Source: a virus
Virus record (IMG/VR): IMGVR_UViG_3300017773_000150
Location: 1 to 22,994 of that record
Reading direction: 5' to 3' (one strand)
DNA length: 22,994 nucleotides
A model generated the notes under the pieces. The model was not told the origin of the DNA. It ran no database searches and was given only the letters and a program-made list of their open reading frames with translations. Shown here piece after piece: positions 2,391 through 22,311 of this stretch. The translations under genes were made by a program, and so were the position numbers. Position 1 is the stretch's first letter, and every line of letters starts with the position of its first letter.

Positions 2391-2731
2391 TATCGTGTAA
2401 CTTCTGGATTAAGAGTTATCTCTCCTTGAATTAGTCTACGAACAACTGCGTCTGCACTAGTATGTATCTCTAAATCATAAAAATATCTTCCTGCAGAAAG
2501 TGCAGAAGAGGTTGCGTTTCCAAGTTGCATTTTTACAACTCCTTGAGTGGCGGGAGTAAGTACAGTGCAAGTAAACGAAGCCGCAACAGTAGAAGCTGTC
2601 CTGCTTGACCGCATTTGAGCACGTGCAGAGTAGCCACTCAGATCCTTGATGGCTCCCAGCTCTTTAATTGTTAAGTTTATTGCAAAGTCGGAACCTTGAT
2701 CAATAACTAGGTTGTATACGGCTGCTGTCAT
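2390..2731 (-). CDS. Small BppU N-domain-like virion protein
   Basis: A 113-aa protein with the pattern DQGSDFAINLTIK, then DLSGYSARAQMRSS, then LSAGRYFYDLEIH, VVRRLIQGEITLNPEVTR. I recognise this as a widespread small phage beta-sandwich protein resembling the N-terminal domain of lactococcal phage BppU, a baseplate or tail-fibre adaptor. Full length for this type. It is the first gene after the promoter at 2752-2780; a GGAG sits 8 bases before the ATG, and the predicted leader is only about 14 bases. Its stop overlaps the next start (TAATG). Likely a structural adaptor at the tail tip or fibre base; the family resemblance is fairly clear but the exact function is inferred. Confidence 0.65.
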   Translation of the reverse strand: MTAAVYNLVIDQGSDFAINLTIKELGAIKDLSGYSARAQMRSSRTASTVAASFTCTVLTPATQGVVKMQLGNATSSALSAGRYFYDLEIHTSADAVVRRLIQGEITLNPEVTR

Positions 2732-2751: not shown

Positions 2752-2780
2752 ATTATAGCCAACTTGAGGTGTTATGTCAA
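2752..2780 (-). promoter_or_regulatory. Consensus sigma70-type promoter (fibre cassette)
   Basis: On the minus strand TTGACA (2780-2775) and TATAAT (2757-2752) are separated by exactly 17 bases: a perfect match to the bacterial housekeeping promoter. An A-rich tract lies just upstream (about 2782-2793), like an UP element. Predicted transcription start is near 2745, giving a leader of about 14 bases that contains the GGAG ribosome binding site of the gene starting at 2731. It is oriented to drive the three adsorption genes. Confidence 0.88.
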
Positions 2781-2801
2781 GAATTATTTTTAACAAGGTG
2801 C

Positions 2802-3953
2802 TTAGTTAATGTTTGGATAGTACTTTTCGAGTGAAGTGAGATCAGAGTATAAGTTATACCAACCTTTGTCATTCTTTTCAACATTTAAAACGTCTGTAAA
2901 GTATTTTTCATACATTTCTACTACTCTATGCATATCGAAGTTATTCTCAGCCCACTTCCTACAAAAGCTTGGATCTATTTTATCAATATTTTTAGTTGCT
3001 TCGACAAAATCTCCAAAAGTTCTACATCTATACCCAGTTAGTCCGTGAAGATTATTTTCTGCAAAAGCGCCCCAGTCAGTAGTTATTGTAGGAGTACCTG
3101 AAAGTAATAACTCAACTTGTACCCCTCCAAAAGGTTCATGGTAAATAGAAGGCACATATGCTGCTTTTGCCTTTGACATAAGCTCTTTTCTAAGAGCAAC
3201 GTCTGCATAGCCTACTTCCTCTACATGATCCGGAACCGACGTATAGCCTAAGCCTGACATCTCTTGTACAATACCGCCTTGTCCTGCAACTTTTAACTTT
3301 ACGCCTGCTGCCTCTGCCGCTTGAATTGCAATATGTACTCCCTTTCCTTCATATACTCTACCCAAAAATAAAAAGTAATCCTCTTTTTCGTGTTTATCTC
3401 TGAATTCAAATTGAGACAGGTCAAAGTAGTTAGGTATAACTGTAGCATACCAATCTGTTTTGCACCTACCGGATGCTTCAGGGCCTCCCATAATATGCAT
3501 TAAGGCATAAGACTCAAATATTTTATACTTACAGAAAGTGCCGGAGCTATATCCTATTCCCGGCTCTACATTTATTAAGTCGGGAAAAGCATCACAAACT
3601 GCTTTGTGTCCCCATCCAAAAAACGCAAGAACAAAATCATACTTCTCTTTTCTTTTGTTTATTTCTTCTATGGTATTTTTATAGAAGGTATTATAAGCGT
3701 GATCTTTTACGTCAAACTTAAAAAAGTGCTCCTTCCAGTTATAGCTTCCATATGCTATTTCTAAGTCTTTGTTTGTGGTTACAGTAATGTGTTCGTCACA
3801 AGGAACATTTGAATCCTCATGTCCATAATGAAAAACAGTATGCCCCCTGCCCTCCATCATTTGACAAAATTTTACCACTTTTTGTGTGTATGCACACGCT
3901 ACGTAATCTAGGTTAGATACCGTATGGGGTAGTCCCAATACATGAAATCTCAT
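2802..3953 (-). CDS. GT4-like GT-B glycosyltransferase
   Basis: A 383-aa retaining-type glycosyltransferase of GT-B fold. The C-terminal half shows FLFLGRVYEGKGVHIAIQAA (from about residue 197), the usual start of the nucleotide-sugar domain, and EPFGGVQVE, an E-x7-E motif with glutamates at about residues 273 and 281, followed by LLSGTPTITTDWGAF. Such enzymes transfer a sugar from a nucleotide-sugar donor; donor and acceptor cannot be told from sequence. Length is normal and the protein looks intact and cytoplasmic, with no signal peptide or membrane anchor. It sits between the tip protein gene and the fibre cassette, in the same direction, 35 bases after the tip stop, with AAGGAAA about 10 bases before the ATG. 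The position suggests it glycosylates a virion protein, possibly the Thr-rich collagen-like tip; modification of host surface glycans is the alternative. It is unlike the T4 DNA glucosyltransferases. Confidence 0.85.
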   Translation of the reverse strand: MRFHVLGLPHTVSNLDYVACAYTQKVVKFCQMMEGRGHTVFHYGHEDSNVPCDEHITVTTNKDLEIAYGSYNWKEHFFKFDVKDHAYNTFYKNTIEEINKRKEKYDFVLAFFGWGHKAVCDAFPDLINVEPGIGYSSGTFCKYKIFESYALMHIMGGPEASGRCKTDWYATVIPNYFDLSQFEFRDKHEKEDYFLFLGRVYEGKGVHIAIQAAEAAGVKLKVAGQGGIVQEMSGLGYTSVPDHVEEVGYADVALRKELMSKAKAAYVPSIYHEPFGGVQVELLLSGTPTITTDWGAFAENNLHGLTGYRCRTFGDFVEATKNIDKIDPSFCRKWAENNFDMHRVVEMYEKYFTDVLNVEKNDKGWYNLYSDLTSLEKYYPNIN

Positions 3954-3969
3954 TACACTAATTTCCTTT

Positions 3970-3987
3970 TAAGTTTAAGTTTAAGTT
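3970..3987 (-). repeat. Three tandem AACTTA hexamers
   Basis: Three perfect AACTTA copies (TAAGTT on the plus strand) fill the gap between the tip gene stop and the ribosome binding site of the glycosyltransferase. They lie upstream of the AAGGAAA, so copy-number change would not alter its spacing to the start. Confidence 0.7.
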
Positions 3988-3988
3988 G

Positions 3989-6900
3989 TTAAGATAGTTT
4001 TCCTATTTTTACTCGAAGAGTACTACCGTCGTAAATTTCTATTTTTGTCGAGCTTATTGCTATCTTGCTTCCGTCTGATTCTGAAGAAACAGTTAAAGCA
4101 TCTGCACTAATAAATCCTCCATAGCTGCCAGTAGTAAGATCTTGAAAGCTTTGTCCAGAGGGAATAGTAGCCGCTGTAGTTGAGTTATTTTGCCACTGAT
4201 AAACTTTACCTGTTTGCACATCCCAATAAACATCGTTTTTTAGTACATCATTAGATCCTCTAAAGGATTGTATAAGCTCGTACTTGTTTGCATCAGTTTC
4301 TAATCCGTCCGTATCAAATACAATGGCATTTCCAGCCGAACCTGCAGGGCCGTCAGGTCCTGTAACACCTGTAACACCTGTATTTCCTCTAGAACCTGTA
4401 TCTCCATCAGGACCTTGGCTACCCGTATTTCCAACAGGGCCTGTATTACCTCTTGCACCCGTATCTCCTGCAGGACCTGTATCTCCATCAGGACCTTGAA
4501 CACCAGTATTACCTCGAGCACCTGTATCTCCATCGGGGCCTTGAACACCAGTATTTCCAACAGGACCTGTATTACCTCTTGCACCCGTATCTCCGTCAGG
4601 ACCTTGAACACCAGTATTACCTGTAGGGCCTACAGGACCTTGAGCACCCGTATCTCCGTCAGGACCTTGAACACCAGTATTACCTGTAGGGCCTACAGGA
4701 CCTTGAGCACCCGTATTACCTCGAGCACCTGTATCTCCGTCAGGACCTTGAACACCTGTATTTCCAGCAGGACCTTGAGTACCAGTATTACCTCGAGCAC
4801 CTGTATCTCCATCCGGACCTTGAACACCTGTATTTCCAGCAGGACCTTGAGTACCAGTATTACCTACAGGACCTTGAGTACCAGTATTACCTGTAGGGCC
4901 TACAACACCTTGGGCACCCGTATTTCCAACAGGACCTTGAGTACCTGTATCTCCGTCGGGTCCTGTGGCGCCTTGCTGCCCCTGAACTCCTGTTGCACCC
5001 TCAGGACCTGTAGCACCGGAAGAACCTTGAACACCTTGCTCTCCTTTCTGTCCTTTTATGAGAACAGGATCTTGAAAGTCGTCCTGAGTAATATCAGCAC
5101 TTGCTTTTTCTAACGCAGCTATAGTCCACTTAATATTTGTTATACCAGCTACCGTAGCATCTACATACCATCTATATTGAGAGTCTGTTTGTCCGCCTTG
5201 TACAGTTAACCAATACCCTCCGGTACTGATAAATACAGTAGGTGTTAGCCTAGTAAAATCACTTGTATTAGAAGAATTGTCTGCTCCTGCAAATATTTCT
5301 GCCCAATATGCAGTATCTGAACTAGGTACTCCTGACCTTCCACTATGATTTTGTAAAGCTACAAACACTTTCGAAGAGTATGATACTACGTTGCCTTGAG
5401 TGTAAGCGCTACCACTAGACCAGGCACTGATTGTAGGGGAAGTACTTAAAGTGTTATCAGGAGCTGTGCTATAATAAGAAAAAGATTGATTACCTGCAAT
5501 ACCTGTAGAACCTGCAGGACCTTGCTGACCAGAAGGGCCTACAATACCAGTACCTCCAGCAGGACCTTGAGTACCTGTATCTCCATCAGGGCCTTGAGTA
5601 CCAGTATTACCTGTAGGGCCTACAGGGCCTTGAGTACCAGTATTTCCAACAGGACCTTGACTACCTGTATCTCCATCAGGACCTTGAACACCTGTATTAC
5701 CTCTTGCACCCGTATCTCCACCAGGTCCTTGAGTACCAGTATTACCTACAGGACCTTGAGTACCAGTATTACCCCGAGCACCTGTATCTCCGTCAGGACC
5801 TTGACTACCTGTATCTCCATCAGGACCTTGAACACCTGTATTACCTGTAGGACCCACAACACCTTGACTACCTGTATCTCCATCAGGGCCTTGAACACCA
5901 GTATTACCTCGAGCACCCGTATCTCCGTCAGGTCCTTGACCACCTGTAGGACCTGCAACACCTGTATTACCTCGATTACCTGTGTCCCCGACAGGACCTT
6001 GAGCACCTGTATCTCCATCAGGGCCTGTAGCTCCTCGATTACCTGTGTCCCCGACAGGACCTTGAGCACCTGTATCTCCATCAGGACCTGTATCTCCTCG
6101 ATTACCTGTGTCCCCGACAGGACCTTGAGCACCTGTATCTCCATCAGGGCCTGTAGCTCCTCTCTCTCCTTTAGTGAATGTTTGTACTCTTGTAAAAGTT
6201 GTTTCAGCACCTAAGGAATCTTTTACTATAATGGTGAAGGTAAGTTTACCTGTTAGTCCTGGTAAAGCCGTTATTCCTGAATATCCTACTGTTGTAGTTT
6301 GCTCAACTGGAGAGGCACTACTGGCTGTGACCCCGTCCGCAGCTACTGCTGATACTCTGAACGAAGAGTTTGCGTAAGGTGAAGAATTATCATATGCTAA
6401 GTTTGTACTTCCTGATACTACTGAAATTATAGTGCCTGTATTAGTAAAATCTAAAGCATTACTGGCACTTACCGGAACCGTAGCATTATCATTCGTTAAT
6501 GAAATAGTTATCCCATCAAGTGCTCCGTCTGAGACTCCCTCAACTCCTCCAGTACTTGCACTTGCGTAATCAGCAGCACCCACTGTTGCCGCAACAAATG
6601 AAGAACCGACAGCATATGTTACTCCCGAAGTACCTGCAGTGGTATTCCAAGCTGCTTGATCTAGGCTTCCAAGACCAACTATGTTATAAGTTTTACCTAC
6701 AACAAAGCTTCCTGATAATTCATTATTATTGGGTTCGTAATTAGAGAAAACTACTTTTTGAGAAGTCTGTGTAGTTTGAGAGCCTCTTTTTACTTCATAT
6801 CTAAGCCAATAGTATCTACTGGTTTGTCCCGAGTCTATTACAGAATCTGTATAGGTATTTGAAGTAGTACTGCCAATATGTATAGCATTTGCTATATTAT

Positions 6901-9900
6901 TTACAGGGTTTCCGTTGCTATCTTTTCCGGACTTCCATATTTGTACCGTGTAATTTGCAGAATTAAAATTATCAGAGTTTTGCCAATTTAACTCAATGCC
7001 ACCCCTTTCATTTTGTGTAGCAGTAATAGTATTTGTTTTGACAGGTAAGGGTACTGCCATGTTAGCTACAGAAGGTATAGCAGGGGCTATTACTTGTGAG
7101 GGCTTGGCAGCAATTAAGTACCCTTCATCTGAGTGTTCTTCCGCTGTAATTTGAACCAAACAGTTTTCATTAAACTTTATATTGTCTATTCTGAACATCT
7201 TCTGCGACCAGCCAAATCTGCTGTAATTTATTCGCATAACGTCCCCGGCTCTTAATAAAACACCTTTAGGAACCATAGTGAAATTAATTTTTAAACCATG
7301 TCTTGAAGAATCTAAATATTGTTTTGCATTCATTCGGGCATTATAATAGTTTGTAACATAAGGCGTTCTCATGCTGCCCTTTTTTGGAACCATTCTATCT
7401 TCTTTGAGATAGTCAGAGTTAAACATCATTACAGAGCGCCCCTCAAACCTATTTTGAGGATCGTTTATTGTAAGATCTAGCTGATTATAAGTACCTTTTT
7501 GACCTACATCTTCAACACTGATAGAACCGATAATATCTTCTTCGTCTACTACTTCAACAGTATAAGACTCTCCATCTATCGATATGGTAGCAGGTGTTTG
7601 TGCTTTTCTTTTTACATCTAAAGAGTACTTACCATTTGAGTATCTTAGTATGCCGTTGAAATGGTTAAGCATGCTATTGATATTGGAAAACACAGATTTA
7701 GAAGTGTCTAGTACAACATTGGTTTGATGACGAGTAACGTGTCTTTGATTTTGTGCATCCCAGCCTAAATACCTCCAGTACTTGACATCATCCGCATCAT
7801 ATAAACTGTACCCAGAAGTATAAGAAGTTGTTGATTTATAGGTTTTAACTAAAGGATCTCCGTCAAAAGTAAATCTGTCACCATAGACAGGACTACCGCC
7901 TACAATGAAACGATTAATATCTAGTGCTAAAGTGCCGGATACAACACCTGTTAAAGATAGAGAAGCTGTAAGGCTGTTACTAGCATTATAAGTAACCAAA
8001 CCGTCAGACCCTGTATGTGTATGAAGTTTTCCATTTTTATAGTAAAGCTCTCCTGAATAAAAATATTTCCAATCTTCATGACGATGCGCAAGTTTACCTT
8101 TAACTTCCTTAAACTCTACAGAATAGCGTGTATCATTTCCATCCCCATTAGGCCTAGGAATAGTTATTGCTGAAGATACGCTTTTTACTTTTCCTTGCCA
8201 AAGAGTTTTTCCTGAGCTTGTAAACTTATACTCTGAGTTTATAGCAGGAGCTGTTTGAGCTAAAACTGTAACATTAGAACGCTCATCACAAGCTCGTGCT
8301 GCTGCAAAAAAACTTTCCTTATCTATATCAGCATCTATATCCAAACCTCTTCCATATCTAGAATCCGTTAAGTAGTCAAGTAGTTGCATGGCAGGATTTG
8401 TACTAACTCTTATATCTCTATTAGAAGTAAAAATCTTATAAGTGTCATTCTGAAGAGGAGGTTCAGAAAAAGGCGAGTCTACAGCAACTATTTTTGAAGT
8501 GCCTCCAGTATAAGCTGTTATTTTCTTTCTTTCAGGCTCTGACACACTTCCATCAGAGAAAACCCGAGTGAGCTCTATTTCTCTACCTATATAAGCTCCG
8601 GCTGCAGTTGATGCATTGGATGCCAGCTGAAAAGACTGTAAAGGAACTACATAAGTAGTCTCTTCAGTTAATGCGCTAGAATCTTCTGTTGTTTGTCCTA
8701 CGTTTTCAATAGTATTGTTATTTCTATTAGCTGGATAAGCATTCAGAGCTTCACCAGATTGACCAGTTTCTCTTCCATCTAAATCCGCTAAAATAGCAAT
8801 CATTTCTGATGCGTCAATTGCAGCTTGCTCAACCGCATTAGAGCTTCCTAATACAACGTCTACTCCGTCTCCTGAGGAGCTATTACTTACTGCCGTTATT
8901 TCCGGAGACATAGTTGCAGGAATAGTGCCTGTATGACCCGTATAGTCGGTTGTTACAAAATGTATTTTATTGCTGCTACCATCCTCGATATAGAAAGCAT
9001 TAAAGCTAGCAGTAGGATCTGTTTTAAACCTAACTCGAGTTTCAGCATTTCCATTCATATCAAGAATAGTATAAATATCTTCAATAACATGATTACCTAA
9101 AGAGACATCCGTGCTTCCACTAACTACATATTTTGAGGCTACAGTCTGTCCGATGTTAAAAGTGGAAGTAGCTACATCTGTTGTTGAGTAGTCAGGGTCT
9201 ATAACATAGGAAAAATCATAATTAAGACATGCAACTCCTTTTCCTCTTACAACAAAGTCTAGAGAAGGTATTGTGGTTTCTCCCTCTCCAATCGTATACT
9301 CACCTACTAGATAAGCTGTATCTAGTAGTTGATGATTAGCTCCCCAATAAGGTTCTGTACCTGAGTAATAATCTTGTGCAATTTTGAAATTATTTGAGTT
9401 ATGTAGAAGTATAGAATCTGCCTTTTGATTACTTGTACCTGCATGAAATTGCATTCTAACATCAATAGGGTTGTCAAATCTAGTGCCCTTTTCGTGGGTT
9501 ATACCTTTCCCTTGAGCAGAAGCTCCTATACCAGTAGCTGAAAAACCTTCTGGCGGATAATAATCATACTCTCTATAAAATCCATTGGCATCGTCGGTTG
9601 TCCATCTAACGCCTCCTCTACCAAAAATAGTTCCGAGGGCAGTAGCAATACTGCTGCTTCTCATATTTTGACCCGTTAGAGTGTCTCCTCTGTCAGCCCT
9701 TCCTGAACAAGTTACATCTACAGTTCCATTAGCAGTTTGATTTCCTCTAACACTTAAGTCGTTAGCATCTATACATATAGAAGAAGTATCATCAAAAAAT
9801 ATATCATATAAGCCTCCTACCTGACCTTCACAGATTGCATAGGCTACGAATACTTTTTTAGAGTCTGAATTTAAAGTGTCGACAAAAACAGGAATACTAT

Positions 9901-11005
9901 CAATCTTATTTACGCCATATACAACGGGCAAGTGTTTTGCTGCTAAGTTAAAGCGTAAGTCTACTTCTCTGTCTACAGTTACTTGATACTCCTCTTGAGT
10001 ATATGACTTCTTTAAACCAAACCAACTACTTTTCTTTTTTAATCTAGTTTTTGTTTCTTGTACTTGATATGTAGATACTAAATTAATTGCTTGTTCGCTG
10101 TGTAAAAATCCTAAATCTGCTGCGTACTCAGGGCGTATGGCAGCACTTGGATCAGGTTTTCCCTCTTGATTTAATGCCCTGTGGTTTTGATCTGCCGTAA
10201 TTCTTCCAGATACTCGAGAAAAATCTCCCCAATGGCTAGTAATACTCCAAGTTATTATGGAGCTTTTTGAAGGGTCTTCTTTTAACTTACCGGAAGCAAT
10301 TATGCCTTTAAATAGTAAATAAGGTTTTCCTATAATAGCACCAGTCTCTGTATCAATATGTGCTTTATATACAAATACATCTCTGTTTATATATCTAGCA
10401 TAGCTTGTGCCACTGGTTCTATCTATTAATATACTTTCTACTTCTGGGTTATTAAAAGTTAAGGTTACGCTCTGATTAGAGGCCGCGGCAAGAGTACCCT
10501 CAACAGAAGTTACTACCATTTTTGTATTATTAACTTCGAATCGATCTACTCTTACTTCTTTATTGTTATTGGTTCCTCCGGAAATAAGAAGTGTATCCCC
10601 TTCTCTAAAGCCTTCTTCTACAAAGTTTTTTGTACCTTGTATTGAGGTAGTGGTAAAAGTAACAGTATCAGTAGTTAAAGTATCTAAAGCAGTAGCACTT
10701 ACGTTGAGACTCATCGTAGTTGCTCTTGCCTGAGTGGTTTCACTAATCGAGCCTACACTTATAAGTTTATTTGCTATATAAGTTTGCGGTCCGTTTACGG
10801 TAGTACTGTTTGTAGGATAAGATAAGTCATCCCATATTATATCAGTAGAACCATCACTAAGATATACATAGTCTTGTGCTCTTTTTAAGCTCTTTCCTGA
10901 TTTCGTTATTACGGGTTTTTCAAATTTTACTAAATGTGCATATGTAAAAGAATCCTCTTTTAGCAAAGAGTTTCTAAGTGTAGCGTCTAAGTTTCTTACA
11001 CCCAT
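3989..11005 (-). CDS. Giant tail tip / central fibre protein (gpJ-like) with collagen arrays
   Basis: A 2338-aa composite tail tip protein expected to form the central spike and contact the host. Residues 1-230 resemble a tail hub module (AHLVKFE, YLSDGSTDIIWDDLSY, ISSI-type strand). About residue 260 is DFSRVSGRITADQNHR, typical of marine gpJ-like proteins. Residues of about 872-905 (LLDYLTDSRYGRGLDID...) match the gpJ core. A fibronectin III-like domain lies near 1320-1430 and a copy of the shared repeat module at 1435-1480. Gly-X-Y collagen arrays span 1613-1840 and 1985-2227. They are separated by a globular segment whose start (residues 1860-1903) resembles a CBM5/12-type carbohydrate-binding fold. 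The C-terminus (2228-2338) has GFISADALTVSS and STKIEIYDGSTLRVKIG. The start overlaps the distal tail stop (TAATG) and has GAGGAA upstream. Much longer than lambda gpJ (about 1130 aa), mainly because of the C-terminal additions. Confidence 0.88.
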   Translation of the reverse strand: MGVRNLDATLRNSLLKEDSFTYAHLVKFEKPVITKSGKSLKRAQDYVYLSDGSTDIIWDDLSYPTNSTTVNGPQTYIANKLISVGSISETTQARATTMSLNVSATALDTLTTDTVTFTTTSIQGTKNFVEEGFREGDTLLISGGTNNNKEVRVDRFEVNNTKMVVTSVEGTLAAASNQSVTLTFNNPEVESILIDRTSGTSYARYINRDVFVYKAHIDTETGAIIGKPYLLFKGIIASGKLKEDPSKSSIITWSITSHWGDFSRVSGRITADQNHRALNQEGKPDPSAAIRPEYAADLGFLHSEQAINLVSTYQVQETKTRLKKKSSWFGLKKSYTQEEYQVTVDREVDLRFNLAAKHLPVVYGVNKIDSIPVFVDTLNSDSKKVFVAYAICEGQVGGLYDIFFDDTSSICIDANDLSVRGNQTANGTVDVTCSGRADRGDTLTGQNMRSSSIATALGTIFGRGGVRWTTDDANGFYREYDYYPPEGFSATGIGASAQGKGITHEKGTRFDNPIDVRMQFHAGTSNQKADSILLHNSNNFKIAQDYYSGTEPYWGANHQLLDTAYLVGEYTIGEGETTIPSLDFVVRGKGVACLNYDFSYVIDPDYSTTDVATSTFNIGQTVASKYVVSGSTDVSLGNHVIEDIYTILDMNGNAETRVRFKTDPTASFNAFYIEDGSSNKIHFVTTDYTGHTGTIPATMSPEITAVSNSSSGDGVDVVLGSSNAVEQAAIDASEMIAILADLDGRETGQSGEALNAYPANRNNNTIENVGQTTEDSSALTEETTYVVPLQSFQLASNASTAAGAYIGREIELTRVFSDGSVSEPERKKITAYTGGTSKIVAVDSPFSEPPLQNDTYKIFTSNRDIRVSTNPAMQLLDYLTDSRYGRGLDIDADIDKESFFAAARACDERSNVTVLAQTAPAINSEYKFTSSGKTLWQGKVKSVSSAITIPRPNGDGNDTRYSVEFKEVKGKLAHRHEDWKYFYSGELYYKNGKLHTHTGSDGLVTYNASNSLTASLSLTGVVSGTLALDINRFIVGGSPVYGDRFTFDGDPLVKTYKSTTSYTSGYSLYDADDVKYWRYLGWDAQNQRHVTRHQTNVVLDTSKSVFSNINSMLNHFNGILRYSNGKYSLDVKRKAQTPATISIDGESYTVEVVDEEDIIGSISVEDVGQKGTYNQLDLTINDPQNRFEGRSVMMFNSDYLKEDRMVPKKGSMRTPYVTNYYNARMNAKQYLDSSRHGLKINFTMVPKGVLLRAGDVMRINYSRFGWSQKMFRIDNIKFNENCLVQITAEEHSDEGYLIAAKPSQVIAPAIPSVANMAVPLPVKTNTITATQNERGGIELNWQNSDNFNSANYTVQIWKSGKDSNGNPVNNIANAIHIGSTTSNTYTDSVIDSGQTSRYYWLRYEVKRGSQTTQTSQKVVFSNYEPNNNELSGSFVVGKTYNIVGLGSLDQAAWNTTAGTSGVTYAVGSSFVAATVGAADYASASTGGVEGVSDGALDGITISLTNDNATVPVSASNALDFTNTGTIISVVSGSTNLAYDNSSPYANSSFRVSAVAADGVTASSASPVEQTTTVGYSGITALPGLTGKLTFTIIVKDSLGAETTFTRVQTFTKGERGATGPDGDTGAQGPVGDTGNRGDTGPDGDTGAQGPVGDTGNRGATGPDGDTGAQGPVGDTGNRGNTGVAGPTGGQGPDGDTGARGNTGVQGPDGDTGSQGVVGPTGNTGVQGPDGDTGSQGPDGDTGARGNTGTQGPVGNTGTQGPGGDTGARGNTGVQGPDGDTGSQGPVGNTGTQGPVGPTGNTGTQGPDGDTGTQGPAGGTGIVGPSGQQGPAGSTGIAGNQSFSYYSTAPDNTLSTSPTISAWSSGSAYTQGNVVSYSSKVFVALQNHSGRSGVPSSDTAYWAEIFAGADNSSNTSDFTRLTPTVFISTGGYWLTVQGGQTDSQYRWYVDATVAGITNIKWTIAALEKASADITQDDFQDPVLIKGQKGEQGVQGSSGATGPEGATGVQGQQGATGPDGDTGTQGPVGNTGAQGVVGPTGNTGTQGPVGNTGTQGPAGNTGVQGPDGDTGARGNTGTQGPAGNTGVQGPDGDTGARGNTGAQGPVGPTGNTGVQGPDGDTGAQGPVGPTGNTGVQGPDGDTGARGNTGPVGNTGVQGPDGDTGARGNTGVQGPDGDTGPAGDTGARGNTGPVGNTGSQGPDGDTGSRGNTGVTGVTGPDGPAGSAGNAIVFDTDGLETDANKYELIQSFRGSNDVLKNDVYWDVQTGKVYQWQNNSTTAATIPSGQSFQDLTTGSYGGFISADALTVSSESDGSKIAISSTKIEIYDGSTLRVKIGKLS
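4325..5053 (-). repeat. Collagen-like array 2, 81 Gly-X-Y triplets
   Basis: Encodes tip protein residues 1985-2227 as 81 uninterrupted Gly-X-Y triplets, from GQK to GNA (counted by hand). GPD, GDT, GNT, GVQ and GPV dominate; about 32 triplets end in Thr. At DNA level there are units of 63 bases (CCAGTATTAC at 4611 and again at 4674) and 72 bases (start at 4751 and again at 4823). It should form a triple-helical rod before the C-terminal domain. Confidence 0.92.
5486..6169 (-). repeat. Collagen-like array 1, 76 Gly-X-Y triplets
   Basis: Encodes tip protein residues 1613-1840 as 76 uninterrupted Gly-X-Y triplets from GER to GNQ (counted by hand), about 29 ending in Thr. Proline is common at X, but Asp/Thr/Gln/Arg fill Y instead of hydroxyproline, as in other bacterial and phage collagen-like rods. 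It follows the FTK end of the preceding beta domain and precedes the carbohydrate-binding-like segment. Confidence 0.92.
5970..6158 (-). repeat. 63-base tandem repeat, three copies
   Basis: Three near-identical 63-base units start at 5970, 6033 and 6096 on the plus strand (each beginning CCTCGATTACC), encoding seven Gly-X-Y triplets each, of the type GDTGNRG...TGPDGDTGAQGPV. Only a few bases differ between copies, implying recent duplication or gene conversion. Confidence 0.88.
6566..6703 (-). repeat. Shared ~45-aa module, copy 3 (in tip protein)
   Basis: Tip protein residues 1435-1480 start VVGKTYNIVGLG and continue through AAWNTTAGTSGVTYAVGSS. The same module occurs twice in the 544-aa tail tube-like protein at 19100-19339, with AGTSGVTYAVGS identical to the second of those copies. 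Confidence 0.85.
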
Positions 11006-11778
11006 TATTGAACTTCCTCAAGACTTAAAGAAAATGCATATAAATTATCTGTATTTAGTGCATATTCCTGTACATCGCCTGCTATGACTACTTGGACCTT
11101 AGGATCGTTAAAAATAAGATCATCCCCCGCTGTAACTGATTTAGATAGTGCAGGAACAAAATGTATTCTTACTTGATTTGTAGTAGGACGAGTTGGTGAG
11201 GTACCAACTATATGATAATCAGTATTCGTTTCTACTCTTGTTACTTGGTACGCTTTTTTATGGTTGGAGTTGGCGCCTGCAATAGTAAACAAATCGCCTG
11301 GCAAGGGAGTTTTATCTGTAGCTACAACATAGTCAGAAGCTGTTAGTAGTAATGTGGTAGAACCTGCTGTGCCTGTTGAATTAGCCGCTGCAGAAGTTAC
11401 TACATGAAGCTGATTAGTGCTCCCACCAGACTCTTGCACCCAGGATCTAAAGTCAGGATCTTGAGGTAGGCGATATTGAGGTAGAGAAACAAAGAAAGGA
11501 TTTAAAGCTCCTCTTCTTTGTAATAAAAAATTATTAATAGGTTCAAACTCATCCCTCGTCATAGGATTATAGCTGATTTTTACTTTCCACATATGTCCTG
11601 TTTTGGCTCTTGCAATAAGTCTTCCCGAATTAGTTCTATCTCTTAAAACTTTTTGATTCGAAGAAAAAGTTACTGCAGAATATCCTGCCCCGTAAGAGCC
11701 TCCACCGGCCGCACCTGCGTCGGTTATTCTATTATTAGGATCTGGTAATATGTTTTGAAAAGTACTGAAATCTCCCAT
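11005..11778 (-). CDS. Distal tail / minor tail protein
   Basis: A 257-aa protein between tape measure and tip protein, the place of the distal tail (Dit, lambda gpM-like) ring that joins the last tube ring to the hub. Residues 1-90 contain a conserved core (MWKVKISYNPMTRDEFEPIN, then FLLQRRGALNPFFVSLPQY) that I know from distal tail proteins of marine siphophages. Residues of about 125-210 form an inserted beta domain with PGDLFTIAGANSNHKKAYQV, like the barrel insertions seen in such proteins. The C-terminus returns to a beta strand (YAFSLSLEEVQ). Start and stop both overlap their neighbours by one base (TAATG), and AGGGAGA precedes the ATG. Function is inferred from position and core motif. 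Confidence 0.75.
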   Translation of the reverse strand: MGDFSTFQNILPDPNNRITDAGAAGGGSYGAGYSAVTFSSNQKVLRDRTNSGRLIARAKTGHMWKVKISYNPMTRDEFEPINNFLLQRRGALNPFFVSLPQYRLPQDPDFRSWVQESGGSTNQLHVVTSAAANSTGTAGSTTLLLTASDYVVATDKTPLPGDLFTIAGANSNHKKAYQVTRVETNTDYHIVGTSPTRPTTNQVRIHFVPALSKSVTAGDDLIFNDPKVQVVIAGDVQEYALNTDNLYAFSLSLEEVQ

Positions 11779-14700
11779 TAGTATCTCCCTACGCCCATAG
11801 CGGCCGCATTAGGTTGTAGTACGGTAGTATCTACTTCTTCAACAAAAGACTGTCCATAAGAATTTGCAGCTTCTCTAATCATGCCTATTATATTTCCTCT
11901 TTGTAGTGTTAGCATATCCTCTACGCCTCCAGAATCTATTGTATTAATATTAAAAGTTACTTGGGCAGGAGCACCTGCTGCTTGTACTTCATCTGCAGGA
12001 GCTATACGTCCTGCACGATCAGGAATAAACATTTCAGGTCCTTGCTCTCCTACCATAAACCCTGCTGTCTCTCCTCCGGCTGCTCTATATTTGGCTCCGG
12101 TAAAGGCAGGCTTAAAGTTACCCGAACCTCCGATTCCATCTTCTCCTCTCAAATAAGCCTGTTCTCCTCTCGCGGACTGAGAAGTTGCTAAATCTACGCC
12201 CTTGCCTCTTTCTCCTATGCCAATGCCGGTAGGAACCGAGGAAGAAGCACTAGCACTAGATTGATAAGACGTGCCTGATATTATAGCTATTTGCGCTACA
12301 CCCATTGCCCCAATTAACCCAGCCAGTGCTATTGCAAAAGGTCCTAAGACCGCTGTCTGGGCCAATGCACCTGCGATACCTGCTGCTGTTGACATAACTG
12401 CTTGAGCAATCATTAACTTTTTATTAGTCTCAAAAGCCTTCTTCTTAATAGAATCTTTCTTAGCTTCCATAGACTTAATTTTAGCTAAAGACTTTGCGGA
12501 CTGTCCGTCTAGTTTTTTCTCTGCGTCGATTTGTTTATCTATAGCATCGATAGCTACATTCGATTGTGCTTTTAATACTGAAGCTATTCCTCCAATAATA
12601 TTTGCAGCGGCAGCAAACCCTGCAGAAAGCTTCATTGCAGTGTTATCACCGGCCTCAGCCATTATCTCCATAGCACCTACCACAGAAGTTAACATTGTGT
12701 TAGATAGCTCACCTAAAGTTGCAGCTAATTCTCCTTCAGGGCCTAACTCTCTTAAAGCCTCTGACATAGCTGTCATAGTATTACTAACCATCTGTAACGA
12801 CGCATGCTCAACATTCTTTTGTGCTTGAATTACTACTGCTTCTGCGGCTTCTGCGGCTAGTATAGCATCGTTTGCGGCTTGAGCAGCATCTTTTTCTCCA
12901 ACGCCGGACATTTGGGCTTGCTCGAGAGCAACTTGGGCGGATAGTGCGTCTAGCTTTTTTTCCGTCAGGTTCTTTTCTGCTTCTGCTAGGGTATTTACAG
13001 CGGCGGCGGCGGCCAGCATCCCTTCTGTCTGTACTTTGAACGCTTCCATTCCAAAACCTTCAGAGCCCATTCTATCAAAGCCTGTATCAAATCCAGACAT
13101 ACTACCTTGTATGGCTGAAGTAACACCTGTTCCTGCTATGCCTATAGACGCACTTGCCATTTGCTGTACTACAGCATTTTGTGCATCAAGTAATCGCAAT
13201 ACTTCTAGATGCTCTGCTGTTAGTTTCTCTTGGCCTCCAAACTGTGCTACTAATAAGGCTCTTTCAGCTTTTATTTTTGCCATTGTAAAAGCCAGATCTA
13301 ACTTTGCGGTTTTTATTTTTAACTCTGCCGCTTCAATTTGTATTTTTAACTCTTGCTGAGGCGTTAATTTTCCTCCTGAAGCTCTTGCTTGTCTAAGTAT
13401 TTTGCTAAGTTGTTGTTCGTTAGCTAAACGCTTTTTTGATAAGTCTAAAATCTTTTTTGAGGTTTTTAACTCATCAACTGCATTTTTGGCCGATATAATC
13501 TGCGGATCTATTTTCTTTGCCTCGGCTTCTGCTCTTAGCCTCGCAAGCTCTACTCCTCTTTCTGATAAGGCAAACTCGCCCTCTTTACCTGTAAATAAAG
13601 CTTCTTCAATCTTAAATTGTTTGTCTAAGTAATCTATTTCTTGGCTTAAAATTTCATTATTCTTTCTATCAAGAAAAGCTTGACCTCCTATAATACCTTT
13701 TGCTGCTTTTCCTAACTCTATAAAGGATGCTTTGGCTACAACTAATTGTTTTTTCATAGTATTTAAGGAATTTCGTGATGTATCTATCCAATCAATAAAT
13801 AACTGAACGCCTTCTGCATTTTTAGTAAATTGAGCAGGTAATTTCATATTTGCTACTTCTTCTTCCAAAGCTTTTAGTAGTTCTATAGCTTCTTGCCCTG
13901 CTTTTGTATAGCCGCTATCGAAGTCTGTTACTACAAAGTTTTCGTCTCGCTTTTTCATAAGATCTTCAAATTTTGCTGCTACTGCTTCTGCTCCTTCTTG
14001 TTCGTCTTGGAACATTTTTTTGACTTTTTGATTTCTCTTATTCATAGTACCGTTGAAAGTAGCAACTACTTGACTAACTTCTCCAAAAGCAGCTCTAACA
14101 GCATTTGGATATCTTTGAATAAGCTCCATTTCAACTAAAAAGTCTGAGTATGAAATCCTTCCAGATGCTAGCCGTTCTTGTAAAGAAACTAATTTAGCCA
14201 TAGAGCTAGCCATTAGGCTGGTATTAAAAGCAGAAGTATCTGTCTTTTTAGCTATTTTTTGTTGTACTTCCAATTGAAAAATAGCCCCTTTTAATATTTG
14301 AGCTGCAGTATCTGTTTCAATTTTTTTAATATCGTCCAATAGAGTTGCACTTTTAGTCTCTTGTCCCGTAATTTGCTTTTTAAGATTTAATATATAAACC
14401 ATTAAACCTTGAAGGGATTGAGCGTCGGCTACATCATTTGAGACTTTTTTTCTTTCAAACTCTAGGTTTTTTTCTTTCAAAAGTTCTACATTTCTTTGCA
14501 AAATTTCTTCGTTATCTCGAAGCTGTGAAGTAAGGTCTGATAAGTTTTGTGCAGCAACCTCTCTAATTTTCCCACTTATTTGATCTAGTACTCCTGCGAA
14601 AGCAATATAGCTTTCAGCAAGTCTTTGTCCCCCCTTTGAGCTAGACTGCATAAAACGAGATTGTATCTCTGCAAACTGTTCAAAAGATTTTTTAGCGTCT

Positions 14701-16286
14701 TCTATTCTCTTTTTTACCAAGTCTTCAGGAAAAAACTTTTCCTTTATTACTCCATAGAGAACAGATACTATAGAAATGATAAGACCTATGTAAGGCAAAG
14801 CAGTAAATAGTGCTGCTCCAAAAGCTTTTGCTCCTGTTCCCGCTATACGAAAAGCAGGTCCCATAGATTTAAGAGAGTTGCGTAAGCCTTTTTTCCCTTT
14901 AGTAGCTTTTTGCGTATTCTCACTATCCTCTTTGAAAGCAGATTTTAGACTGCCAAAGGAGTCTCTTAAATCAAAGTTAGCTGCAGAACCGATAGCAGTA
15001 GCTCTTGCGTTCGTTACTCGAGCCTTTCCTTGAAGATCTTCTAGCTCTGCGAGATCTTTCATTTGGTTTCTTACGCCTTGTATCTCTGCAGATTTTGAGG
15101 CATACTCTTCAGTGCCTTTTGTGAGACCGTTTAAACCTCTTGTTAGGCCTCCTAACTGTCCTTGGAGACTATTATTTGCAGTAGCAAACTCTTTTGAAGT
15201 AGCGGTGCCATTTTGCAGAGCTCCTGCAAGTTTTGCAAATTTAGGTGGAAGTTTGTTACCTTCAGTAGCGAGTCCTGCAAGTTCGGCACGTGCGGTTAAC
15301 GCTCCGTTGGCGGTTGCTGCAGCAGAATCTGCAAGCCTGAACATTCCTGGTGCAACTCCTCTTGTGATACCTAAAGCTAGTGTAGTACCTACGGCTGCTA
15401 AAGAAGCTAAATGTCTTGATGCAAACTCTACGGCACTGCTTAATCCTGTTACGGCCGAAGTTCCGTTAATAAAGGCTTTTTGTAAATCTGCTAAAGAAGC
15501 GGCGAGTTTATCGTAAGGATTAGAGTCTACACCTTGACTAAGATCTTCAAACTTTTTAAGTCCTTGTTCAATTGTTGCGTTTAAAAATGCCTGTCGTCTG
15601 TCAAATTGAGTAACTTGCCCTGCCGCTAATCCTAGTCTATCTGCATAGTCTTGTACAGCATCGTCAAGTCTTACCATAATACCTAATTCATCAAGAATTT
15701 CAGGTTCTAATTTTGCAGTACCTCTTACTAGACGATCTAAAGCATCTCCCATATCTCTTCCGAGGGCTATAGAAGCGCCTTTTGCTACTTTTGTTAATTG
15801 AATTAATTGATCAGATCGAAAACCTGCTGACATAGCTAATGCTGTTGCTCGCATTGCTTGTTCAGAAGAAATAGCGGCCCCCGTAATATCTCTAAGACCG
15901 TTAGCAACATCAGGAAGGTTTTGGCCTGCAGCAGCTCCTACAAGTCTCAAACCTTTTTCTAATTGTTCTATCTGAGCTGCTCGTCTAAGAGCGTTGAAGG
16001 CGGCAGTTGCTGCAAAGATGTTTGCAGCTAGAATTGCATAAGCACTGACTAAGCCGTTGCTGCCACCCATAGAGTCGCGCATTTTTGAGAAACCTTTACT
16101 CGCACTTAAACCAGCCTGCCCAACACCTTTGGCCCCTCGAGCAAAGTGATCTTGACCTTTATTAGCTTTTTTAGTAGCGCCTTCTACTTTTCCCAAGCTA
16201 TCAGCAGTTTTTTTAGCCTCTTTGGTAACAAGTGCTAAAGAACCTTTGTCATCAAGTTTTACCGTAAAAGTAATTTCGTTAGCCAA
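11778..16286 (-). CDS. Tail tape measure protein
   Basis: A 1502-aa protein, the longest after the tip, placed directly after the tail assembly chaperones as tape measure genes are. It sets tail length and is thought to pass into the host on infection. The N-terminus is Lys/Ala-rich and helical; residues of about 80-101 and 494-512 (PYIGLIISIVSVLYGVI) are hydrophobic, and 1297-1336 form a long Ala/Gly/Ile hydrophobic stretch. Extended charged coiled-coil sequence lies at about 520-1150. Residues of about 1414-1434 contain GEQGPEMFIPDRAG, a C-terminal motif common in tape measure proteins. No lysozyme or peptidase domain is visible. The start codon is TTG (16286-16284), with AAAGAGA upstream; no better ATG exists before the conserved-looking MANEITFTVKLDD. 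Its stop overlaps the distal tail start. Confidence 0.93.
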   Translation of the reverse strand: MANEITFTVKLDDKGSLALVTKEAKKTADSLGKVEGATKKANKGQDHFARGAKGVGQAGLSASKGFSKMRDSMGGSNGLVSAYAILAANIFAATAAFNALRRAAQIEQLEKGLRLVGAAAGQNLPDVANGLRDITGAAISSEQAMRATALAMSAGFRSDQLIQLTKVAKGASIALGRDMGDALDRLVRGTAKLEPEILDELGIMVRLDDAVQDYADRLGLAAGQVTQFDRRQAFLNATIEQGLKKFEDLSQGVDSNPYDKLAASLADLQKAFINGTSAVTGLSSAVEFASRHLASLAAVGTTLALGITRGVAPGMFRLADSAAATANGALTARAELAGLATEGNKLPPKFAKLAGALQNGTATSKEFATANNSLQGQLGGLTRGLNGLTKGTEEYASKSAEIQGVRNQMKDLAELEDLQGKARVTNARATAIGSAANFDLRDSFGSLKSAFKEDSENTQKATKGKKGLRNSLKSMGPAFRIAGTGAKAFGAALFTALPYIGLIISIVSVLYGVIKEKFFPEDLVKKRIEDAKKSFEQFAEIQSRFMQSSSKGGQRLAESYIAFAGVLDQISGKIREVAAQNLSDLTSQLRDNEEILQRNVELLKEKNLEFERKKVSNDVADAQSLQGLMVYILNLKKQITGQETKSATLLDDIKKIETDTAAQILKGAIFQLEVQQKIAKKTDTSAFNTSLMASSMAKLVSLQERLASGRISYSDFLVEMELIQRYPNAVRAAFGEVSQVVATFNGTMNKRNQKVKKMFQDEQEGAEAVAAKFEDLMKKRDENFVVTDFDSGYTKAGQEAIELLKALEEEVANMKLPAQFTKNAEGVQLFIDWIDTSRNSLNTMKKQLVVAKASFIELGKAAKGIIGGQAFLDRKNNEILSQEIDYLDKQFKIEEALFTGKEGEFALSERGVELARLRAEAEAKKIDPQIISAKNAVDELKTSKKILDLSKKRLANEQQLSKILRQARASGGKLTPQQELKIQIEAAELKIKTAKLDLAFTMAKIKAERALLVAQFGGQEKLTAEHLEVLRLLDAQNAVVQQMASASIGIAGTGVTSAIQGSMSGFDTGFDRMGSEGFGMEAFKVQTEGMLAAAAAVNTLAEAEKNLTEKKLDALSAQVALEQAQMSGVGEKDAAQAANDAILAAEAAEAVVIQAQKNVEHASLQMVSNTMTAMSEALRELGPEGELAATLGELSNTMLTSVVGAMEIMAEAGDNTAMKLSAGFAAAANIIGGIASVLKAQSNVAIDAIDKQIDAEKKLDGQSAKSLAKIKSMEAKKDSIKKKAFETNKKLMIAQAVMSTAAGIAGALAQTAVLGPFAIALAGLIGAMGVAQIAIISGTSYQSSASASSSVPTGIGIGERGKGVDLATSQSARGEQAYLRGEDGIGGSGNFKPAFTGAKYRAAGGETAGFMVGEQGPEMFIPDRAGRIAPADEVQAAGAPAQVTFNINTIDSGGVEDMLTLQRGNIIGMIREAANSYGQSFVEEVDTTVLQPNAAAMGVGRY

Positions 16287-16287
16287 G

Positions 16288-16671
16288 TTATTTTCTCTTT
16301 AGCTTATCGTACTCCCTCTTCATTTGTTCTTGGGACTTTTTGATAGCTCTTGAGTCTAACCAAGATATTATTTCTAGGAAGAACTCTGTGTCTGTTATTT
16401 TATGTACGTTTAAAAAATGCGATAGATTTGTATAATCTTTTCCTACATATCCTATCTCTGGATAAATTCTATCTCCCAAACTATTAAAAGTATTTATAGC
16501 TTCTTTAATTATTTCAGGAAAGTCCTCCCAATCAGGAGGAATTTCGTTATCACTTGGTTCTTTTCCTAACTGCTCGCACATATCTAAATACTTATTGCGA
16601 GTCATTCCAGTATCAAGATTCTTGTACATGCTCTCGAGGCGCTTTAATGCTTCCTCCTTTTGGCTTTGCAC
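16288..16671 (-). CDS. Tail assembly chaperone, frameshifted downstream part (gpT-like)
   Basis: An open frame of up to 127 codons overlapping the end of the 150-aa chaperone gene. The sequence (MCEQLGKEPSDNEIPPDWED, then FPEIIKEAINTFN, IGYVGKDYTNLSHFL) fits the downstream half of phage tail assembly chaperones, comparable to lambda T, which binds the tape measure protein. The first possible start is GTG at 16671 with no convincing ribosome binding site; the first ATG (16629) is 23 bases past the only AGGAGG, too far. It is therefore probably made only as a C-terminal extension of the upstream protein. The frame is +1 (or -2) relative to the upstream gene. A slip at 16658-16660 would give a fusion of about 258 aa. 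The stop lies one base before the tape measure start. Confidence 0.8.
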   Translation of the reverse strand: MQSQKEEALKRLESMYKNLDTGMTRNKYLDMCEQLGKEPSDNEIPPDWEDFPEIIKEAINTFNSLGDRIYPEIGYVGKDYTNLSHFLNVHKITDTEFFLEIISWLDSRAIKKSQEQMKREYDKLKRK

Positions 16672-17065
16672 GAAAGTTTTCTAAATCAAAGACTACCTCA
16701 TTGAGCCACGTATCAAATTCTGTGGAAGAAGAAACTAGAGTTTCTGCATTTTCTTCTGTATATTCTAATTCTTTTGAAAGATCTTGTCCATCAACGTCAA
16801 TTAAAATTAAAGTCTGTAAGTGTTCCAAAGTTAGCCCTTTCCAGTTTTTTATGGTTGAACGAGCAAATTCAGTTACAAATTTATCCTCATCTAGCGTCTC
16901 TGCAGCTTGTCTTGTTTTTCTATCGAACTTGGTCGTAGTACATCTCTTACGTAGTCCAGTTAGTTCTTTTCTTGATAAGTTAGCTACTTCCACAGAAAAA
17001 TCAGATAAACCAGGAAAGTCTACCCACACTGCTTTTGTATCAACCATTAATTTCTTTAAATCCAT
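16613..17065 (-). CDS. Tail assembly chaperone, upstream part (gpG-like)
   Basis: A 150-aa protein preceding the tape measure gene. The pattern W-V-DFPGLSDFSVEVANLSRKEL, LRKRCTT, IKNWKGLTLEHLQTL, then ENAETLVSSSTEFDTWLNEV and DLENF is characteristic of lambda G-type tail assembly chaperones, which coat the tape measure during tube polymerisation and are absent from the finished tail. The ATG has AGAGGA 7 bases upstream and lies 12 bases after the previous stop. The last 14 residues after the Lys of AKPK are replaced when the ribosome shifts into the downstream frame, leaving a 136-residue common part. Confidence 0.85.
   Translation of the reverse strand: MDLKKLMVDTKAVWVDFPGLSDFSVEVANLSRKELTGLRKRCTTTKFDRKTRQAAETLDEDKFVTEFARSTIKNWKGLTLEHLQTLILIDVDGQDLSKELEYTEENAETLVSSSTEFDTWLNEVVFDLENFRAKPKGGSIKAPREHVQES
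16653..16663 (-). promoter_or_regulatory. Candidate programmed frameshift site in chaperone overlap
   Basis: On the minus strand the sequence is CCA AAA GGA GG in the upstream frame. tRNA-Lys on AAA (16660-16658) could re-pair with AAG one base on, entering the downstream frame as AAG GAG GAA. The bases also form AAGGAGG, a strong Shine-Dalgarno-like element. The usable shift window runs from just after a downstream-frame TAG (shortly before 16671) to the upstream TGA at 16613-16615. The exact slip position is inferred; a -2 shift elsewhere in the window gives the same frame. Confidence 0.5.
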
Positions 17066-17077
17066 TCTTTATTCCTC

Positions 17078-17989
17078 TTAAGATTGTGTTGTATAAATTA
17101 GTACGGAAGCAATATTGCCTCCAGTTTGTCGAGTCATTCTCCAGTCTGTGCTTTGTGTAAACACACCTTGAGTATTAACTCTATTTGTAAAAGAGCAGCC
17201 GTTGGTATTACCTGTGTTTAAGTCTATGCCGTAAAAAGTACTTCCAATAGTAGTTCCTGCTTTTATACGTAAAGGTTTATCTAATCCAAAACTTTGAGCT
17301 ACAGTATTATTAGTATCTGTCGAATATCGAGTAATATTACCTGCTAAAATTTTGTTTCCATACTTAAACCCAGATGGATATTGCATTGTACCTGCTATTG
17401 CATTATTTACTGTTTTATGGTTAGTCCATTTTACTTCGTGCTGCAATTCCATTGAAAGAGAGCGTAAATCTGAAGAAATGTCTGCACCATCTAATAAGAC
17501 GGTTAGTTCAGGACACAAATTATAAGTGCGAGGAGAGGCAGGGGTCCTTAGAACCATGCCACTAATAGCATTGAATTCACTAGACTGTCCTGTAAGAAGC
17601 TTGGATGCCTCGCCTGACACGGTTAAACTCAGAGGTCGCAATCTCTCGATATTGATCTGCCCATTTGTTATAACACAATCATCAAGTTTAAAAACATCTG
17701 CCGCTGTTTTGATGTATAAATCGAAACCGCCACCTGCCAGCATTCGATCAAAAGTTATTCTAGTATCATCTTCTATAAGAAGATTCGTCTTTAACTCAAA
17801 ATTTGCAGGGTTGGCAAAGTTAATTGTAGACGCTTCAAACCAATCACTTTGATTATGCAGTGTTTTTACAGAGCGTGACTGCTCTGTAAATGTTTGGTTA
17901 AAAGTTATAGAGCTTATGTCTATTTGTACCTTAGTAGTACCAGACACTATATAAACTTCTGCTTCCTTTAAAAAACTATAATTTGCCAT
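17078..17989 (-). CDS. Second tail tube-like protein
   Basis: A 303-aa beta-rich protein with the pattern VYIVSGTTKVQIDISSITFN, then SVKTLHNQSDWFEAS, NPANFELKTNLL and FDRMLAGGGFDLYI, which I associate with the phage tail tube protein family (Phage_TTP_12-like). VFKLDDCVITNGQINIERLRPLSLTVSGEA parallels VYKLKDCVVNEASLDFDIDG in the 544-aa gene upstream, so the two appear paralogous. It directly precedes the tail assembly chaperones, the canonical position of the major tail tube gene, and has its own perfect promoter; this may therefore be the main tube subunit. The ATG has GGGA about 5 bases upstream in a leader of about 47 bases with a hairpin. A minor tail role is the alternative. Confidence 0.7.
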   Translation of the reverse strand: MANYSFLKEAEVYIVSGTTKVQIDISSITFNQTFTEQSRSVKTLHNQSDWFEASTINFANPANFELKTNLLIEDDTRITFDRMLAGGGFDLYIKTAADVFKLDDCVITNGQINIERLRPLSLTVSGEASKLLTGQSSEFNAISGMVLRTPASPRTYNLCPELTVLLDGADISSDLRSLSMELQHEVKWTNHKTVNNAIAGTMQYPSGFKYGNKILAGNITRYSTDTNNTVAQSFGLDKPLRIKAGTTIGSTFYGIDLNTGNTNGCSFTNRVNTQGVFTQSTDWRMTRQTGGNIASVLIYTTQS

Positions 17990-18007
17990 ATTATCCCAGA
18001 TATAACG

Positions 18008-18027
18008 AGGGGCTCCGAAAAGCCCCT
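18008..18027 (-). other. Leader hairpin downstream of promoter
   Basis: A perfect 7-bp stem AGGGGCT / AGCCCCT with a 6-base loop (TTTCGG on the minus strand) lies about 10 bases after the predicted transcription start and 18 bases before the ATG at 17989. No T-run follows on the minus strand, so it does not look like an intrinsic terminator. A transcript-stabilising or translation-modulating leader structure is more likely. Confidence 0.7.
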
Positions 18028-18043
18028 GTCTTTTATACTACAT

Positions 18044-18072
18044 ATTATATGTCAATCAACCAAAATTGTCAA
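18044..18072 (-). promoter_or_regulatory. Consensus sigma70-type promoter (tail block)
   Basis: TTGACA (18072-18067) and TATAAT (18049-18044) are separated by exactly 17 bases on the minus strand. A run of seven A lies upstream, followed by GTTC before the -35. A second TTGACA sits just before the -10 (18055-18050), too close to serve it. Predicted start is near 18036. It drives the second tube gene and probably the chaperones, tape measure and tip genes. Layout is the same as for the promoter at 2752-2780. Confidence 0.88.
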
Positions 18073-18097
18073 GAACTTTTTTTGGTGTGGTTAACTA

Positions 18098-22284: not shown

Positions 22285-22311
22285 AAAAACTTGGGGGAGA
22301 TAAACTCCCCC
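22285..22311 (-). terminator. Intrinsic terminator after major capsid gene
   Basis: On the minus strand GGGGGAG and CTCCCCC (22311-22305 and 22299-22293) form a perfect 7-bp stem with a 5-base loop, followed after a short AAG by TTTTT (22289-22285). It lies 22 bases after the capsid stop. Such partial terminators lower expression of downstream connector genes relative to capsid. Confidence 0.8.

Follow-up and report, generated by a model that had tools for sequence, protein, structure and literature searches.

Two sites in the viral fragment IMGVR_UViG_3300017773_000150 (IMG/VR; 22,994 bp, hereafter the window, meaning the whole stretch of DNA analysed) are very probably real host-type, sigma70-like promoters, to judge from their sequence and its conservation among relatives. 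We refer to them as P1 and P2, and consider it probable that both restart transcription within the late region, P1 for the tail block and P2 for the fibre cassette, and that they do so late and under phage control, as in phage T5. All main genes of the window lie on the minus strand and run, from the contig end, in the order major capsid, head-tail adaptor, neck, tail terminator, major tail protein, second tube protein, two tail chaperones, tape measure, distal tail protein, a 2338-aa central-fibre/collagen-repeat protein, a glycosyltransferase, a 113-aa fibre-assembly protein, a 143-aa protein and a 641-aa fibre-like protein. The features on which the argument turns are these:

22293..22311, minus strand: intrinsic terminator after the major capsid gene, GGGGGAGTTTATCTCCCCC-AAGTTTTTA (terminator scan)
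18073..18083, minus strand: P1 upstream box AAAAAAAGTTC, an UP-element-like A-tract with TTC (sequence, clade-wide signature)
18044..18072, minus strand: P1, putative promoter of the tail block, predicted RNA start ~18037 (exact match, conservation in relatives)
18008..18027, minus strand: GC-rich hairpin AGGGGCTTTTCGGAGCCCCT in the predicted P1 5' leader, U-tract degenerate (CGTTATATCT) (fold -15.7 kcal/mol, z -2.55)
17078..17989, minus strand: second tail tube or baseplate tube-like protein, 303 aa, first gene after P1 (phrog_3889, E 2.3e-12)
16613-17065 and 16288-16671, minus strand: tail assembly chaperones (phrog_313, 3914 and 3779, shared with the tape measure)
11778-16286, minus strand: tape measure (phrog_313, 3914 and 3779, shared with the chaperones); the core tail block is 11778..17065
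11005-11778, minus strand: distal tail protein (phrog_1302, phrog_31 and tail fibre families, jointly with the 2338-aa protein)
3989-11005, minus strand: 2338-aa central fibre/collagen-repeat protein (phrog_1302, phrog_31 and tail fibre families, jointly with the distal tail protein)
2802..3953, minus strand: glycosyltransferase in the variable slot upstream of P2 (phrog_3408, E 3e-161)
2781..2799, minus strand: P2 upstream box ACC-N5-AAAAATAATTC (sequence; ACC box and A-tract enriched clade-wide)
2752..2780, minus strand: P2, putative promoter of the fibre block, predicted RNA start ~2745 (exact match, conservation in relatives)
2390..2731, minus strand: 113-aa tail-fibre assembly protein, first gene after P2 (phrog_1084, phrog_3304 'L-shaped tail fiber protein assembly')
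1959-2390, minus strand: 143-aa protein of the fibre block (fibre/virion families; follows the 113-aa gene in relatives)
12-1937, minus strand: 641-aa fibre-like protein of the fibre block (fibre/virion families; follows the 113-aa gene in relatives)

On the minus strand P1 reads TTGACA-attttggttgattgaca-TATAAT from 18072 to 18044 and P2 reads TTGACA-taacacctcaagttggc-TATAAT from 2780 to 2752, each an exact match to the sigma70 hexamers at their ~17-bp spacing. They are the only two exact TTGACA-N17-TATAAT sites in the whole window and both are intergenic, P1 in a 108-bp gap between the end of the major tail gene (18098) and the start of the next gene (17989), and P2 in a 70-bp gap between the end of the glycosyltransferase gene (2802) and the next start (2731). 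The sequence-only reading had placed both sites on this strand and at these positions, in gaps of about 70-108 bases, and had held exact consensus to be rare by chance, all of which is borne out: dinucleotide shuffles lead one to expect 0.04 exact sites, and 0/100 shuffles contained two. Counted by eye, 11 of 18 upstream bases match between P1 and P2, as it had said, and the A-tracts and TTC that it saw upstream of both belong to a clade-wide signature, AAAAATAATTC; its 'identical core' holds for the hexamers and the spacing, whereas the spacer sequences are unlike. Looser consensus scans return sites at about shuffle level (32 vs 29 and 25 vs 23), and therefore only perfect matches carry weight by themselves. 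A clade promoter model built from relatives, with the window excluded, gives scores of 37.1 for P2 and 36.5 for P1, against 6 or less for all other window sites on both strands and a maximum of 6.9 across 30 shuffles, and it was in keeping with this that no weaker extra promoters were found before the major tail or adaptor genes of the window. Among relatives, position and hexamers have been kept, as expected under selection, at 39/39 P2 loci and in 48/50 P1 gaps. The idea that P1 and P2 are chance matches to consensus in A+T-rich gaps, for which base composition speaks and nothing further, is refuted by the shuffles, the clade model and this fixed-position conservation, and deserves practically no credence.

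Protein comparisons indicate that the window is a fragment from an abundant, mostly marine, uncultivated phage clade that is distant kin of T5 (Demerecviridae). The cultured phages nearest to the window are T5-like, its capsid being 37% identical to that of Aeromonas phage TS3, and in relatives of 72-79 kb identity to Demerecviridae proteins is 45% for the DNA polymerase, 42% for the portal, 51-53% for the protease and 47-49% for D5. A T5-type set of capsid, portal, terminase, DNA polymerase, protease and D5 is present in the clade, and its phages can be classed as T5-like on the grounds that capsid, portal, terminase, polymerase and D-genes appear both homologous and collinear. A DNA-level search of 50,697 phage records returned zero isolates matching the window, and a search for the second tube protein among isolates returned none. 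One conserved tail protein sufficed to retrieve at least 592 relatives from IMG/VR, and the clade is therefore large and uncultivated; no paper covering it was found in the open-access literature on T5 RNA-seq and marine T5-like clades. Metagenome bins with a clade relative were assigned to Gammaproteobacteria in 4/7 cases (L256, L257, L259 and L262, labelled Halieaceae, Porticoccaceae and Gammaproteobacteria), those of L258, L260 and L261 disagree, and mis-binning is possible; these seven loci from bins of mixed taxa offer only a hint of a gammaproteobacterial host.

The tail genes of the window have some features of their own. The chaperone ORFs overlap at 16613-16671, as expected with programmed ribosomal frameshifting in tail assembly chaperones. 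The 2338-aa fibre protein (3989-11005) contains long GPxGDTG-type collagen-like repeat tracts, and has in common with the major tail protein (18098-19732) a short module, ...GLG...W NTxAGTSGVTYAVGSxxxA..., a domain that seems, from its sequence, to have been copied between the two genes.

The relatives used for P2 were chosen solely on the protein that the 113-aa gene encodes, which gave 39 loci with 31 distinct sequences. TTGAC[A/T]-17-TATAATT stands 19-21 bases before the start codon of this gene in every one of the 39, and agreement with the majority base, 0.42 further upstream, reaches 0.93 within the A-tract box, 0.96 within the -35 hexamer and 1.0 within the -10 hexamer, with conservation of the spacer exceeding what sigma70 requires. 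When the extended P2 motif was sought in 2.9 million viral contigs, it was found in 87 stretches, almost all of them before the 113-aa gene. The gene directly upstream belongs to about 18 families across 53 loci; as P2 is constant and this gene variable, P2 marks the constant upstream border of the fibre cassette, and the slot beside it is variable. That slot is occupied in the window by a glycosyltransferase that is 64% identical to that of Synechococcus phage S-CAM7 and has its closest phage kin in Synechococcus myophages. An identity of 61-64% to Synechococcus T4-like phages is found here within an otherwise T5-like phage, and in one relative (L111) a homologue of the glycosyltransferase occupies the same slot upstream of P2.

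For P1, relatives chosen by the tail terminator protein provided 50 distinct gaps downstream of the major tail gene, of which 48 contain a P1-type promoter (TTGAC[A/T]-17-TATAAT/TATACT/TAGAAT) with the same A-tract; it is kept also in relatives that have no second tube gene. A single strong GC-rich hairpin is present in each of these 48 promoter-bearing gaps. It stands ahead of the promoter in 30 of them, where it takes the form of a textbook terminator, AAAAAGGGGCTTCGGCCCCTTTTT; in the other 18, including the window, it is found some 15-25 bases downstream of the promoter, within the predicted 5' leader. The two groups serve as each other's control, and no locus has hairpins on both sides or on neither (opposite-side hairpin in 0/30 and 0/18). 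The U-tracts differ, with a mean of 4.9 T in 8 for promoter-first and 6.8 for hairpin-first loci (p ~1e-6, uncorrected for kinship), and an intrinsic terminator at this junction is found in the 30 hairpin-first relatives and not in the window, where the tail is only CGTTATATCT; the window hairpin as a plain terminator is for this reason unsupported. Several stem pairs have changed on both sides with pairing kept among 12 promoter-first hairpins, that is, the changes are compensatory. Mapped onto a tree built from three concatenated proteins, the order of promoter and hairpin requires five changes at best, at least three of them on well supported branches. A junction made of one promoter and one GC-rich hairpin, with the order swapped among relatives, looks new. 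A similar hairpin followed by AAGTTTTT/AGGTTTTT is present in the aligned capsid-adaptor gaps of relatives, where the stem sequence varies and the pairing is kept.

The two promoters of the window are instances of a design used throughout the clade. In almost all of 130 distinct clade promoters TTGAC[A/T] is immediately preceded by the A-tract box AAAAATAATTC or a near form of it, giving the common form AAAAATAATTC-TTGAC[A/T]-N17-TATAAT; the check that had been proposed, to look for an A-tract with consensus elsewhere, thus finds the pattern recurring through the relatives' genomes. Some 20 large relatives have at most 15 exact promoters per record, and a reversed control pattern gave 0 matches. 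What varies is the base on either side of the -10 box. In a thinned set, early-strand promoters have G before the box in 22/25 and A after it in 22/25, whereas promoters before the small terminase, portal-region and fibre genes have A after it in 0/25 and T in 24, the late set having been collected partly with a pattern that requires T at this position; the 39 P2 loci, chosen with no such requirement, all have T. The contrast between early-strand and structural promoters is significant in the thinned set (Fisher p 5e-11) and per ortholog family (p ~0.004 without P1 and 0.016 with it, hand-worked from the same table). P1 stands apart, as the sole structural promoter with an early-type A after the -10 box (46/48 relatives), with G before it in just 3/48, and on these flanks it would be a third promoter type. 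These -10 flank classes, G-TATAAT-A on the early strand against TATAAT-T before head and fibre genes with P1 as a third type, look new, and the difference in sequence between early-strand and structural promoters points to temporal classes. A bolder scheme would have near-perfect sigma70 promoters drive all genes of the clade, with the -10 box identical and its flanks setting the timing (G-TATAAT-A for the early class, TATAAT-T for the head and fibre genes) and with P1 a third type, its start tuned by a hairpin that has switched promoter side at least three times; we regard this as conceivable and, on balance, doubtful.

An ACC box is found 17-19 bases upstream of the -35 in 18/24 P2 and 18/48 other promoters, against 0 and 3 in a control stretch (36/72 against 3/72 for both sets together); in the window it is at 2797-2799, upstream of P2. 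To our knowledge such a box has no known sigma70 or UP-element meaning.

How the late region might work can be outlined from these elements. By analogy with T5, host polymerase would transcribe all gene classes. Capsid messages would stop in part at the terminator at 22293-22311, and the major tail message would end or be protected at the hairpin of the P1 junction, so that the two hairpins may truncate the abundant capsid and tail messages or make them more stable. Behind the highly expressed major tail gene and its hairpin-marked junction, P1 would start the tube, chaperone, tape-measure and tip genes, and P2 would provide the fibre genes with an independent start, regardless of which cargo gene lies upstream. 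The division of the late genes into a tube, tape-measure and tip block and a fibre block, as first proposed from the sequence, is supported, while the RNA starts at P1 and P2, the partial termination and the late timing are what we infer.

It is over timing that other readings have to be weighed. The sequence-only reading took P1 and P2 for constitutive boosters, always on and merely adding to late transcripts driven from upstream. Perfect consensus with an UP-like A-tract would indeed be strong on unmodified host polymerase, and the early-like A after the P1 -10 box counts against late timing and in favour of this reading. However, the strong sigma70 promoters PG25 and PJ5 within the late region of T5 give transcripts only ~30 min post infection (PMC7472727); since such promoters are timed in T5, a perfect consensus does not mean constitutive expression, and the clade moreover retains distinct -10 flanks on its early-strand and structural promoters. 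We therefore think constitutive boosting rather improbable. The contrast that was drawn with late control from a single promoter by lambda-type antitermination is the wrong comparison for a T5-like phage.

A different possibility is that P1 is attenuated, RNA starting there at all times and halting at the hairpin until a phage factor intervenes, in the manner of lambda pR'-tR' with Q. The hairpin does follow the promoter in 18/48 loci, the window among them, some of these loci (L152, L158, L211, L247 and L252) have a good U-tract after it, and the early-type A is confined, among structural promoters, to P1. Against this, a hairpin that precedes the promoter in 30/48 loci cannot have attenuation as a shared function, the U-tract of the window makes a poor terminator and those of promoter-first loci are weaker as a group, which leaves attenuation unlikely, if not strikingly so. 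The promoters might instead be repressible, with a phage or host regulator setting their timing by binding a dyad over the -35 box (GAC-N7-GTC or TTGACAT-N3-ATGTCAA). GAC-N7-GTC is present in 22/31 distinct P2 sequences, a perfect TTGACA...TGTCAA occurs in several P1, P2 and early promoters, and the P2 spacer is kept beyond sigma70 need; yet the half-site spacing varies between promoters, P1 and P2 of the window have no clean dyad, and shared descent alone could account for the P2 pattern. We give repression little weight. The dyads themselves (TTGACAT-N3-ATGTCAA, GAC-N7-GTC and TTGACA-N10-TGTCAA) are a possible operator of varying spacing, with carriers in the P2 family (e.g. L071, L089, L027 and L053), at P1 in L168 and L170, and in the early promoter L160:2283. 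Restarting of late transcription by P1 and P2 under phage control is the reading that we retain.

For specialists the interest would lie in the clade-wide regularities more than in the individual promoters. The separation of early and late expression in T5, with promoters all of the sigma70 type, has been stated to be unknown in its basis, and T5 early promoters have, according to the same authors, a common discriminator motif (PMC7472727). The clade offers natural contrasts for this puzzle, in that across hundreds of genomes the hexamers, spacing and A-tract are constant and the -10 flanks and spacer vary by gene class; as the flanks vary by class in otherwise constant promoters, the discriminator idea becomes directly testable. 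Repeated swaps of order make the P1 junction a natural experiment on a hairpin placed before or after a promoter, and a start of its own at P2 would be a simple reason why tail-fibre cassettes accept new neighbouring cargo genes.

Among known systems, lambda pR'-tR' with Q is similar to the promoter-first loci only, in that a strong promoter is followed at once by a terminator-like hairpin. It differs in that the clade hairpin begins no more than a few tens of bases from the promoter, and on its other side in most relatives, and that the window hairpin lacks a U-tract; lambda-like late control as a general model was rejected, given that the hairpin precedes the promoter in 30/48 loci. The fibre loci of T4-like cyanophages and pelagiphages contain kin of the 113-aa protein (34-40%) and of the glycosyltransferase (61-64%), whereas the head, connector and DNA polymerase genes of the clade are T5-type, unlike those of these phages. 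Their fibre genes that were fetched lie 3-72 bp after the preceding gene, and an informal look saw no clade promoter before them.

The closest likeness is to T5 itself (GenBank AY543070). PJ5 and PG25, like P1 and P2, are sigma70-type promoters with upstream A-tracts, on the late strand and within the structural region, and a terminator after the major capsid gene is annotated in T5 as it is found in the clade. The G-TATAAT-A flanks of early promoters are also common to both, with G in 16/24 and A in 21/24 in T5 and 22/25 for each in the clade, although the early -35 is TTGCTW in T5 and TTGACW throughout the clade. The gene positions differ, PJ5 lying within T5.146, ahead of the major tail gene, and PG25 ahead of T5.139, while P1 follows the major tail gene and P2 precedes the fibre-assembly gene; this bars calling them orthologues and does not bar calling them late promoters of the T5 kind. 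At the junction equivalent to that of P1, T5 has a 4-bp gap with neither promoter nor hairpin. By tblastn there were no homologues of gpT5.026, A1 or A2, T5 proteins tied to transcription control, which, with the differing gene positions, counts against a T5-like late control; D5, which the T5 annotation describes as needed for late transcription, is present in the clade and counts in its favour. Taken by this comparison, P1 and P2 would represent late transcription of the T5 kind within a distant clade, using promoters that are themselves ordinary in design.
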